In this document: positions 8,967-56,684 of the stretch, in pieces | How the letters are laid out: each line of letters opens with the position of its first letter | How positions within the stretch are numbered: position 1 is the stretch's first letter | Assembly: GCF_000144695.1 (NCBI RefSeq) | Contig: NC_014378.1 | Location: forward strand, 780,781-844,780 | Origin: Acetohalobium arabaticum DSM 5501 | GTDB lineage: Bacteria > Bacillota > Halanaerobiia > Halobacteroidales > Acetohalobiaceae | Length of the DNA: 64,000 bases | Direction of reading: 5' to 3' | Position numbers and translations under genes: made by a program | Notes under the pieces: model-generated | Seen by the model: the letters and a program-made list of their open reading frames with translations, nothing else | Told to the model about the DNA's origin: nothing | The model's database searches: none

Positions 8967-9449
8967 GCGTCAACTTAATATAGGTACTTACTTATTATTG
9001 ATATAATGTTGCAATTTAGAGTTGATATCTTGCAAACGCTCCGAAAATCAGCCCTAGTCAACCAGCAATAAATTACCCTTATAGCTACATTTAAAATTAT
9101 AGCTTATATGGTGATTATTCTCTCTTTTGGGGCTGCTTTAAAGTCGCTTTTTGCAAGATATCAACTAATTGTGCAAAATTATCTGAGGTGACGTAAAACC
9201 ATATTAATGAAATTTCTGTGCTGTAACTATAGCCTGGGAAGTTTCTCTGTTCCAGATCTTTTTTCTCCGAAACAGCCCAGGCTGTGATTGAAATGTAATA
9301 CCATGGCAATATCATACTGCAAATGGTCAATATGCGTCTATAGCAACTCTAATTGATGATAACCATATTGACTATCACTGCAATATTTTGAAAGTGCAAC
9401 ATTATATCAACAATGATGCATTTCACCAAAATTTAGCTTAAGTTGACGC
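8967..9449. repeat. Palindromic repeat element, copy A (MITE-like, non-coding)
   Basis: The gap between the cyclo-ligase gene and rarA has no credible gene. An outer perfect 12-bp inverted repeat GCGTCAACTTAA (8967-8978 with 9438-9449) surrounds an inner terminal repeat starting TATTGATATAATGTTGCA (8996-9017 with 9391-9412, 20 of 22 matching). Inside is a perfect 16-bp pair GTTGATATCTTGCAAA (9021-9036) / complement (9150-9165). About 120 bases at 9107-9225 match copy C in reverse orientation. Motifs such as TTGACTATCACTGCAATAT recur in copy B. This looks like a non-autonomous mobile palindrome. Confidence 0.8.
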
Positions 9450-24363: not shown

Positions 24364-24864
24364 TATTGATATATTGTTGCAGTTTAGAGTTGATATCTTG
24401 CAAACGTTTACCGTTCGTTTGAGATATTGCAGATTATAGTCAACAAATCTCTTACGCTTGCCATTCGCTCGACGTCCTGTCTCACTCACTCTCAAAAAAG
24501 AACTTTCCGCCATAGCCAGCATACAAACCAATGACTGGCTATGGGAGTAACCTTTAGAGCTAAATATGGTAGTATTGAGCAAATCTAAAGGACTAAGAAC
24601 AAAAAGAAATTATTCTACAACCTCCATGGCTCCAAGTTCTTTTTAAGAGTCGCTCCAGAGAAATGTTGACTATTTGTAGTTCAATATATTCTATTATCAA
24701 TAGTCAATATGTGTCCAGAGCGACTCTTAAAACTGGTCCGGAACCACGGACGGTGGAGGGCCAGTTTTTGACAGTGAGCGAAACAGGATGTTGAGCGAAC
24801 GGCAAGCGGCGGATACATATTGACTATCACTGCAATATCTTGAAAGTGACACATAATATCAATA
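24364..24864. repeat. Palindromic repeat element, copy B (MITE-like, non-coding)
   Basis: Starts with TATTGATATATTGTTGCAG (identical to the right end of copy C, reversed) and ends with the partial complement at 24843-24864 (16 of 22). It holds two related modules with GCTTGCCGTTCGCTC, CTCACTCTCAAAAA and AAGAGTCGCTCT-type sequence, in opposite directions, around a hairpin that differs between modules. The same module occurs in copy C at 53040-53165. Short frames here resemble each other only because the DNA repeats; none has a ribosome site. Confidence 0.8.
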
Positions 24865-52972: not shown

Positions 52973-53474
52973 TATAATTTGTCAATTCCTATTTGCAGCC
53001 AATATAGTTTCATTCATGATATTGCAGGAATAGTCAATATGTATCCGCCGCTTGCCGTTCGCTCAACATCCTGTTTCGCTCACTCTCAAAAAACAGTTTT
53101 CCGCCATCCATGGCTCCAAACTGTTTTTAAGAGTCGCTCTGGACACATATTGACTATTGATAATAGAATAGATTGCTATGGTTATCACCAATAGGAGTTG
53201 CTGTAAGCATATATTGACTATTTGCAATATTACATTGCAATTACAGCATAGAAATTTCATTAATCTGGTTTTAAACGCCCCCTCGGATAATTTTGCATAA
53301 TTAGTTGATATATTTCAAAAAGCAACTTAAAGCAGCCCCATAAGAGAAAATAATTAATATATAAAGTAGGCTCTTTAAATCGTATCTCTAAGATTAGTTT
53401 ATTGCTGATTGACTAGGGCTGATTTTGGCAGCGTTTGAAATATATCAACTCTAAACTGCAACAATATATCAATA
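52967..53474. repeat. Palindromic repeat element, copy C (MITE-like, non-coding)
   Basis: Left end ATTGATATAATTTGTCA overlaps the stop codon of the TIM-barrel gene; right end (53453-53474) is the complement of the left end of copy B. It contains the GCTTGCCGTTCGCTC module (53050-53165) shared with copy B and about 120 bases matching copy A in reverse. A perfect 16-bp pair GTTGATATATTTCAAA (53304-53319) / complement (53434-53449) matches the pair in copy A with two paired changes. The rest of the gap to 53611 is AT-rich without features. Confidence 0.82.
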
Positions 53475-53611
53475 AAGCTGTAAGTTAACTAGACAAATAT
53501 TAATCTATATGCTTAGCTTAAATTTTTTTAATTTAAAAGCAGGATTTTTGGTTTGGGAAAAGAATAATTATAAATGCAGCAAGTTAATGGAAACTAATTA
53601 AAATATAATAT

Positions 53612-53790
53612 CGTAGTGGTTAGGTGCTCTTAGCTACGGTTAAGAGTGAATAGGGAATCAGGTGTAAATCCTGAACGGGTCCGCCGCTGTAATCGGTATG
53701 TTAGACTCAGAATACCACTTGCATATGTTGAGTATTCAGGGAAGGTAGAGGCTAACAGTAAGCCGAAAGTCAGAAGACCTGCCTAATCAT
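53612..53790 (+). promoter_or_regulatory. Cobalamin riboswitch 2, separated from any target gene by IS607
   Basis: Core AATAGGGAATCAGGTGTAAA at 53650, CGGGTCCGCCGCTGTAATC at about 53676 and B12-box GTCAGAAGACCTGCCTAAT at 53769. P1 pairs TGGTTAGG (53617) with CCTAATCA. The core reads CCGCCGCTGT where CCGCCACTGT is usual. It resembles riboswitch 3 over most of its length. The genes directly downstream belong to an insertion sequence. Confidence 0.9.
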
Positions 53791-53842
53791 TACCTACTGA
53801 AGCTTCGGTAACAGGTAAGGTAGGTGATTAGCTAGGCTAATT

Positions 53843-54064: not shown

Positions 54065-54670
54065 ATGAAGTTATCTGTTAAAGAGGCAGCTGACTTTTTA
54101 GGTGTTGCAAAATCTACTTTAAGGCGCTGGGATAACGAAGGTAAGCTAGTTGCTGATCGAACTGAAGGCGGACATAGGAGATATCCTAAAGATAAATTAA
54201 TTGCTTTTCAAAAGAAAGATAATAACCAAAGCAAGTTAACTATTGGATACTGTAGAGTATCTAGTCATGGCCAAAAGGATGACCTTAAACGACAAGTAGA
54301 AAATGTATCTAATTATTGTATTGCTAATGGTTATCAGTTTAAAATCATAAGAGATATTGGCAGCGGGCTTAATTATAAAAAGAAAGGTTTAAAAGAGCTT
54401 ATTGAATTAATTGAGAGCAGGAAGATTGAAAGGATTGTAGTTAATTACAAAGATAGACTTATTAGATTTGGTTATGAAATGTTTGAGCAAATTTGTGAGT
54501 TAAATAATGTTGAAATAGAAATTATTAATCACACTGAAAATAAAACTTACCAAGAAGAGTTAGTTGATGATGTATTATCAATCATTACAGTCTTTTCAGC
54601 TAAATTATATGGTAGTCGAAGTAGTAAAGCTAAAAAAATTAAAGAGACTAATAAAGAGCTATTTGATTAG
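54065..54670 (+). CDS. tnpA: IS607-family serine recombinase transposase
   Basis: 201 residues. N-terminal MerR-like DNA-binding helix (VKEAADFLGVAKSTLRRWDN, GGHRRYPK), then a small serine-recombinase catalytic domain starting IGYCRVSSHGQKDDLKRQ with the nucleophilic serine at about 66, GSGLNYKKKGLKELI and VVNYKDRLIRFGYE. The N-terminal binding domain ahead of the catalytic domain is the IS607 arrangement. Intact. GAGGTGG precedes ATG; tnpB follows by 29 bases. Confidence 0.92.
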   Translation: MKLSVKEAADFLGVAKSTLRRWDNEGKLVADRTEGGHRRYPKDKLIAFQKKDNNQSKLTIGYCRVSSHGQKDDLKRQVENVSNYCIANGYQFKIIRDIGSGLNYKKKGLKELIELIESRKIERIVVNYKDRLIRFGYEMFEQICELNNVEIEIINHTENKTYQEELVDDVLSIITVFSAKLYGSRSSKAKKIKETNKELFD

Positions 54671-54699: not shown

Positions 54700-56208
54700 A
54701 TGCTTAGAACTAGCAAAATTAGGATTACTGACCAAGAATTTAAAGAGTTTGCTATCGAAAAAGTATATCTGACCAGACATTTCGAAAATATGCTACTGAT
54801 TTTACTAGAACAAGACTACAAACAAGAGATCGGTGATAGAAAGTTAATTTCCAATCCTTATGTAATGAGAGCAGTAATTAGGGATACCAAAGGAGGTCAA
54901 TATGCTGATAAGGTTTCTTATATTAAAGATAAATATCAAGACCATGGCTTAATGCAGGATTTAATTAAAGTAGGTAAACAGCTTAAAAAAGATAATCTAG
55001 TCATGACTATGCGTAAAGTTAGAAAGGATTTTAAGTCTTTTTACACTAAAGTTAAGAATGGTGATAACTCAGCTAATCCACCCAAACCTAAGAAATTATC
55101 TAAAATGAATAGTTACACTTTATTAATTGATAACGATAAAGGAATGTCACTAGCTTATCTTAAGAAAGGACAGAATAAGCTAGGAATTACTCTTGATCAT
55201 GATGAAGGCAGAAAATATCTCTATATTGACCATCAAGCTGTTAGAGATATAGTTGGTGATTTAGATAATATCCAAAGTGTTAATTTACAATACTCCAATG
55301 GTGAATTATATTTGTTGATTACTTACCATCAAGAAGTTGAGACTAACAATGATAGACCGCATAAACTTGCTGGATTAGATATTGGAGTCGATAATCTAGC
55401 AGCTATCTATATAGAAGATGAAGCTAGTCCTAGTTTGATAGTAGCTGGTAAAAAGTATAAAACTTACAATAGTAAATTTAACCGTCAGATAGCTCAAATA
55501 TCTAATAGTATTGATACCTGCAAGTTAGAATCCAGAAAGAACTATCTTCGCAAATATAAAAGTTATTTATTTGAAAAACGAAATAGATTCTTCTATGACC
55601 AATTTCATAAAGTTAGTAAGCGGCTTTTAGAATATTTAGACCAACATGATGTAACCGAACTTGTTATTTCAGATAATCTTAATCATTTAAAGAATAATGG
55701 CAACTGCAAATTACAAAAGAAAACTAAACAGAACTTTATTCAAATTCCATTTGGCAAACTATTAGACTACTTAAAATATAAAGCTAAAGAGTATGGAATT
55801 AAAGTTACTGTTGTAAATGAAGCCTATACTTCAAAATCAAACTCTTTTACTAATGAGGTGCATAAAGTTAAGTCATTGCAGCAAAAGATTGATAGTTTAA
55901 AAGCTCAACAGAAACAAATTGAGTCTGATATTAAATACCAACAATACCAATGCTTAATTGATGCTTACCAAGATTTATTAGATAAATACAACTATCAAGG
56001 TAAGCGAGTTAAGCGAGGATTATACCTTGATTATATTAATGATTTAGCTATGCATAGCGACATTAATGGAGCTAGAAATATTGCTAAGTTAAGCTCTAAT
56101 TATCAAAAGAAGGATTGTAACAATCTTAAAAAGTTATGTAATCCCATTAAAGTAGAAAATGACTATCAATTTTGTCAATTGTTAAAACAAGATAAACAAG
56201 CAGCTTAA
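54700..56208 (+). CDS. tnpB: TnpB RNA-guided nuclease of IS607 (intact, variant RuvC site)
   Basis: 502 residues, long for TnpB (often about 400). RuvC-like parts: GLDIGVDNLAAIY with Asp227, LVISDNLNHL at about 321 where the canonical enzyme has a Glu (IEDLN), NEAYTSKSNSF with Glu374, and HSDINGARNIAK with Asp454. This fits the TnpB group in which the catalytic Glu is relocated. There is no CxxC zinc finger; instead a coiled-coil-like, Gln/Lys-rich insert covers about 388-432. TnpB proteins use an RNA from the element's right end to cut DNA and help retain the element. AAGGAGGTGG precedes ATG. Confidence 0.88.
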   Translation: MLRTSKIRITDQEFKEFAIEKVYLTRHFENMLLILLEQDYKQEIGDRKLISNPYVMRAVIRDTKGGQYADKVSYIKDKYQDHGLMQDLIKVGKQLKKDNLVMTMRKVRKDFKSFYTKVKNGDNSANPPKPKKLSKMNSYTLLIDNDKGMSLAYLKKGQNKLGITLDHDEGRKYLYIDHQAVRDIVGDLDNIQSVNLQYSNGELYLLITYHQEVETNNDRPHKLAGLDIGVDNLAAIYIEDEASPSLIVAGKKYKTYNSKFNRQIAQISNSIDTCKLESRKNYLRKYKSYLFEKRNRFFYDQFHKVSKRLLEYLDQHDVTELVISDNLNHLKNNGNCKLQKKTKQNFIQIPFGKLLDYLKYKAKEYGIKVTVVNEAYTSKSNSFTNEVHKVKSLQQKIDSLKAQQKQIESDIKYQQYQCLIDAYQDLLDKYNYQGKRVKRGLYLDYINDLAMHSDINGARNIAKLSSNYQKKDCNNLKKLCNPIKVENDYQFCQLLKQDKQAA

Positions 56209-56347: not shown

Positions 56348-56456
56348 AATGAAAAAAATAGCAAAAATATGCAGGAATTTTTCTAGCAGCAGAGAATATA
56401 TCATATATAGATGCTTAAAGTTAAGTTAATCATTGGAGCATAAAAATAAATATATA

Positions 56457-56630
56457 ATGGTTAGATGCCTTTAGCTACGGCTAAAGGAGAATAGGGAATC
56501 AGGTGTGAATCCTGAACGGGCCCGCCACTGTAACTAGCTAACTAGGCTCAATATACCACTTGGATATTTTATATTCAGGGAAGGTAGAACTTAGTATTAA
56601 GGCTAGAAGTCAGGAGACCTGTCTAACCAT
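56457..56630 (+). promoter_or_regulatory. Cobalamin riboswitch 3 (controls cbiMN-btu-tonB)
   Basis: Core AATAGGGAATCAGGTGTGAA at 56490, CGGGCCCGCCACTGTAAC and B12-box GTCAGGAGACCTGTCTAAC at 56609. P1 pairs ATGGTTAGAT with GTCTAACCAT. It lies about 180 bases before cbiM and is followed by its own terminator. Confidence 0.93.
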
Positions 56631-56684
56631 TTACCTACTATTTCTTCGATGGTAAAAAGAGTGGGTGATTAGTATTGACTAATT

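Follow-up and report, generated by a model that had tools for sequence, protein, structure and literature searches.

Copies A and C of a 16-bp inverted repeat are probably members of one short, non-autonomous, MITE-like repeat family of Acetohalobium arabaticum, which is characterised by concerted arm subtypes and by recombination between copies. Paired arm changes in two copies can thus arise by subtype switching and recombination rather than by repeated compensation.

Copies of the L element

The analysed window comprises 64,000 nucleotides of the A. arabaticum DSM 5501 genome. In copy C, the left arm GTTGATATATTTCAAA at 53304-53319 is followed after a spacer of 114 nt by its exact complement at 53434-53449, and one additional base also pairs, which extends the inverted repeat to 17 bp. 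Copy A carries GTTGATATCTTGCAAA at 9021-9036 and the complement at 9150-9165, with a spacer of 113 nt. The stems of A and C differ at two positions, each changed in both arms; both the exact inverted repeats and the two paired differences described in the first-pass annotation were thereby confirmed. The two copies represent one element, designated L, in opposite orientations. Arms with C-G and G-C at the two variable pairs, as in A, were designated type 1 and those with A-U and U-A, as in C, type 2. A third copy, B, has an A-like left arm on its own.

9021..9165, + strand: L element, copy A, with arms of type 1 (168.8 bits)
24389..24404, + strand: copy B, left arm only, type 1, in a composite without the L loop
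53304..53449, - strand: L element, copy C, with arms of type 2 and a loop of the type 1 lineage (R2 model, 169.4 bits)

Perfect 16-bp inverted repeats with spacers of 90-140 nt occurred four times in the 64-kb window, whereas 50 shuffles gave 0.0 on average, which excludes an origin by chance. RNA-fold z-scores against shuffles were -7.9 for copy A and -5.1 for copy C.

The genome of this salt-lake bacterium, published in 2010 for strain Z-7288T (PMC3035264), was searched as one contig of 2,469,596 bp. The arm pattern gave 107 matches and the reversed control pattern none. A profile search of the sequence around the arm-pattern sites revealed 61 full and 13 partial copies of L (about 147 nt; 55 distinct copies). 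None of the 61 was located inside an open reading frame of at least 90 amino acids, every one being intergenic. The upstream gene had the same direction in 39 of the 61 copies, a mild bias, and four copies were found between divergent genes. L is short and multicopy, has inverted repeats at both ends and shows no coding capacity. A covariance model of L identified four more copies in a same-genus genome, all with type 2 arms, and no independent copies elsewhere in the order; weak matches in a third genome coincided with the R modules described below. At the site of copy C the element is absent from the same-genus genome, where the intergenic region is too diverged for a clean empty site. A literature search on these A. 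arabaticum repeats found no report. A GC-rich palindrome unlike L, GCCGGGGTTGTTTCAG...GTGAAACTTCCCCGGC, adjoins one type 2 L copy (L047:2116-2162) and recurs near others.

Arm subtypes and their history

Among the 15 arm pairs of the 55 distinct copies, 11 are invariant, two vary on both sides and two show single G-U changes. One hybrid copy, g1316686, combines a left arm of type 1 with a right arm of type 2. A tree of 59 sequences, built from the loop alone, placed type 2 at the base together with all four same-genus copies and indicated a single origin of type 1. Copy C (g834067) as well as g1404057 and g1435930 have type 2 arms, although their loops fall in the type 1 clade with the hybrid g1316686 as their neighbour, and this position marks C and its two relatives as recombinants. 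Along the loop tree, the state of the arm pairs changed three to four times, the half-swapped hybrid included. The history with the fewest changes has two switches of both arms in concert plus one half switch, with the second switch brought about by recombination. As the C group is recombinant and the hybrid half-swapped, the apparently compensatory signal is reduced to about two concerted switches, which provide weak evidence for a folded RNA. The non-complementary segments that adjoin the arms on their inner side, CGCTCCG/CGCTGCCA and TTTAAAGTCGC/TTTAAGTTGC, switch along with the arm type, and this fits exchanged tracts rather than pair-by-pair compensation.

With the 59 sequences, covariation was tested against a tree null in which the inferred substitutions were re-placed on the tree, the history being treated as a tree without recombination. 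None of 21 L pairs was significant, at a power that was low because few pairs vary. The first-pass annotation had taken the covariation between A and C as a sign that pairing of the arms is selected or that gene conversion keeps the arms identical; with no significant pair, the claim of covariation in these arms was not upheld beyond about two concerted switches. The arms underwent 0.23 changes per site as compared to 3.53 in the terminal loop, which is 15-fold less, and singletons per site were also fewer (0.10 versus 0.38, Fisher p 0.017). The arms of L are hence conserved as sequence and look like terminal repeats in this respect. Several two-sided changes were found in the inner stem and the fold z-scores are strong, so folded L may still have a role.

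Pairing of the L arms in a functional RNA, with single changes compensated stepwise under selection, appears quite unlikely. Paired cells amounted to 99.5% versus 95.2% in shuffles, cells with two-sided changes to 40 versus 10, and the inner stem occurs as CAGCCC/GGGCTG, CAGTCC/GGACTG, CAGCTC/GAGCTG and CAGACC/GGTCTG, all of which would agree with such an RNA; however, shuffles ignore relatedness, and no pair remains significant once the tree null is applied. The invariance of 11 of the 15 arm pairs, mismatches without an excess of G-U (four G-T and four A-C), the absence of an Rfam match and the mildness of the orientation bias (39/61) also speak against it. The almost always exact complementarity of the arms and the strand-symmetric mismatches would fit a DNA process as well, namely hairpin- or cruciform-templated correction, by which DNA repair would keep the arms of a copy identical in the absence of selection. 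We consider this similarly improbable, as the hybrid copy and three C-A mismatches of the inner stem remain uncorrected, the arms and the non-complementary internal-loop segments changed jointly, and conservation of the arm sequence itself is not expected from correction alone.

According to the favoured MITE-like reading, GTTGATATNTTNCAAA would be the terminal inverted repeat of a family with two subtypes. The C/G subtype found in A originated a single time from the ancestral A/T-pair subtype found in C, and later recombination returned ancestral arms to either side of a derived loop, leading to C and its two relatives. A putative trans-acting enzyme would recognise the arms by sequence, probably when folded; recognition of both arms would keep those of each copy matched, and recombination among the approximately 60 copies would swap arms and loops. 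The suggestion of a structured RNA or of a hairpin used in mobility is retained in part: the palindrome is dispersed, looks mobile and recombines between copies, whereas repeated covariation of its arms was not found.

Composites holding L and R

The majority of L copies are nested in larger palindromes, here called composites, whose ends are TTGATATWWTGTTGCA or TTGATATWWTGTGTCA; most composites also contain, adjoining L, a second module of 128 nt designated R. Both ends were present in 55 composites, mostly of 278-729 bp. Three composites are located in the window:

8998..9410 (genome 789778-790190), + strand: composite around A, ends TTGATATAATGTTGCA and its exact complement
24366..24862 (genome 805146-805642), + strand: composite around B, with R modules and without the L loop
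52969..53472 (genome 833749-834252), - strand: composite around C, with L and R modules, ends TTGATAT...ATATCAA

Four sites that differ in their flanking sequence carry 532-bp composites sharing 99-100% identity, which indicates recent dispersal. In line with the MITE-like reading, the outer ends of the composites (TTGATAT...), the L arms (GTTGATATCTTGCAAA) and the R arms of one relative (GTTGATATGTTTCAA) resemble one another. The end consensus runs about 10 nt further outward (T at -10). No consistent target-site duplication was detected at the composite ends; further out, a weak 3-nt excess was observed (8 versus 2.2 expected). The composites that were read contain no transposase of their own, and among the ends found, neighbouring pairs are at most 1.9 kb apart. 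Classical cut-and-paste transposition is thus unsupported, as neither an enzyme with these ends, in the composites read, nor a clear target duplication was found. The older type 2 L copies lie outside such composites, and L therefore appears to be a unit of its own, which joined the composites later. The composites at genome positions 639307-641170 and 2130381-2132097 have grown to 1.7-1.9 kb, and both insertions begin with TTGAGGTTCCCCCATTAAATTAGACAC.

L has several features in common with described repeat families. As in MITEs, L has inverted-repeat ends, multiple intergenic copies and no open reading frame, but a partner transposase (in the composites read) and a clear target-site duplication were not found. 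Stem-loop-containing repeat families are, like L and R, dispersed, mostly shorter than 200 bp and defined by a common predicted secondary structure (PMC2267715); the survey covered 40 older genomes and could not include that of A. arabaticum, published in 2010. Bcr1 of the Bacillus cereus group, listed in the same survey and credited with mobile-element characteristics in the title of an article in J Bacteriol 2004, is by its description likewise a short intergenic Bacillota repeat with a conserved predicted fold and traits of mobile elements, but it belongs to another host group, and L and R are nested in composites with common ends. REP elements, defined as palindromes of 20-40 bp with a GTAG or CGTC tag (PMC3733652), are intergenic palindromes as well; L is far longer and has the arms GTTGATAT in place of these tags, and is thus not a REP element.

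The R module

Two R modules and one R-like module were identified in the window:

24436..24567, - strand: second R-like module in composite B, divergent or interrupted (42.7 bits)
24700..24827, + strand: R module in composite B (152.2 bits)
53030..53157, - strand: R module in composite C, structure-conserved (R1 model, 151.2 bits)

Two-sided changes were observed at 19 of 40 pairs among the 30 distinct R copies of A. arabaticum and at 27 of 40 in five genomes from four genera of the family. Across Bacillota, significance under the tree null was reached by 14 of the 40 annotated pairs and by none outside the annotation, and the 40 top-scoring pairs included 28 annotated ones. Paired sites of R changed more often than unpaired sites (1.51 versus 1.04 changes per site), a pattern opposite to that of L. 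R is conserved in its loops, one AYGGAY-like and the other AGGAY, as well as in its GA-rich internal loops. These results provide strong evidence that the fold of R is under selection. The covariation suspected by the first-pass annotation is consequently present in the neighbouring R module, unlike in the L arms, and R is the part worth following, more than these arms. No Rfam family covered L or R at the gathering score, and a relaxed E-value gave nothing credible; as the fold of R is conserved in several families of Bacillota and absent from Rfam, a covariance model could be deposited. Asymmetry between G-U and A-C mismatches (four each in L; 32 versus 9 in R, with 19 of the 32 in one column) was rejected as a decisive test for RNA, since equal numbers would also be expected from decay after insertion.

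Of 398 Bacillota genomes sampled, 13 contained R; these 13 represent seven families and include a MAG of the Halanaerobiales and the genome of an uncultured member of the Clostridia. A search for plasmid and phage carriers gave no match. In one distant genome, R lies downstream of a DDE transposase gene in each of five nearly identical elements of 1.6 kb (L180:1831-3454; L181-L184). The ends of these elements are CAGGGCAAAATCATTT and its complement. They were rejected as the autonomous carrier of R because other R copies of that genome lie outside them, and R was taken as their passenger. In another distant Bacillota genome, an R module is located between the 23S and 5S rRNA genes (L179:1501-1630).

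It is possible, though somewhat short of probable, that L is a diverged opposite-strand relative of R and that both constitute one structured family with a selected fold, which would be compatible with the MITE-like reading. The other strand of L reads AAGCGACTTTAAAGCAGCCCC and R reads AGAGCGACTCTTAAAACTGGCCC, and the L model gives opposite-strand hits (E ~0.003) at seven R loci in one relative, the R arms of which are GTTGATATGTTTCAA. Although such similarities make the kinship plausible, the R model detects L at an E-value of 0.48 only, and the matches of the L model may stem from the common arms alone. One can further speculate that R, and possibly L, are undescribed folded nucleic-acid parasites spread across Bacillota, which can nest within themselves and are copied by a hairpin-recognising trans-acting enzyme. 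This appears unlikely to us; such an enzyme would recognise the fixed loops and purine-rich internal loops and leave the stem sequence free.

Two similar cobalamin riboswitches are located on the + strand of the window at 53605-53800 and 56446-56640. Between them lie two genes, one for a resolvase-type transposase (54065-54670) and one that is OrfB_IS605/TnpB-like (54700-56208), and in the same-genus genome repeated riboswitch matches were found on one contig.
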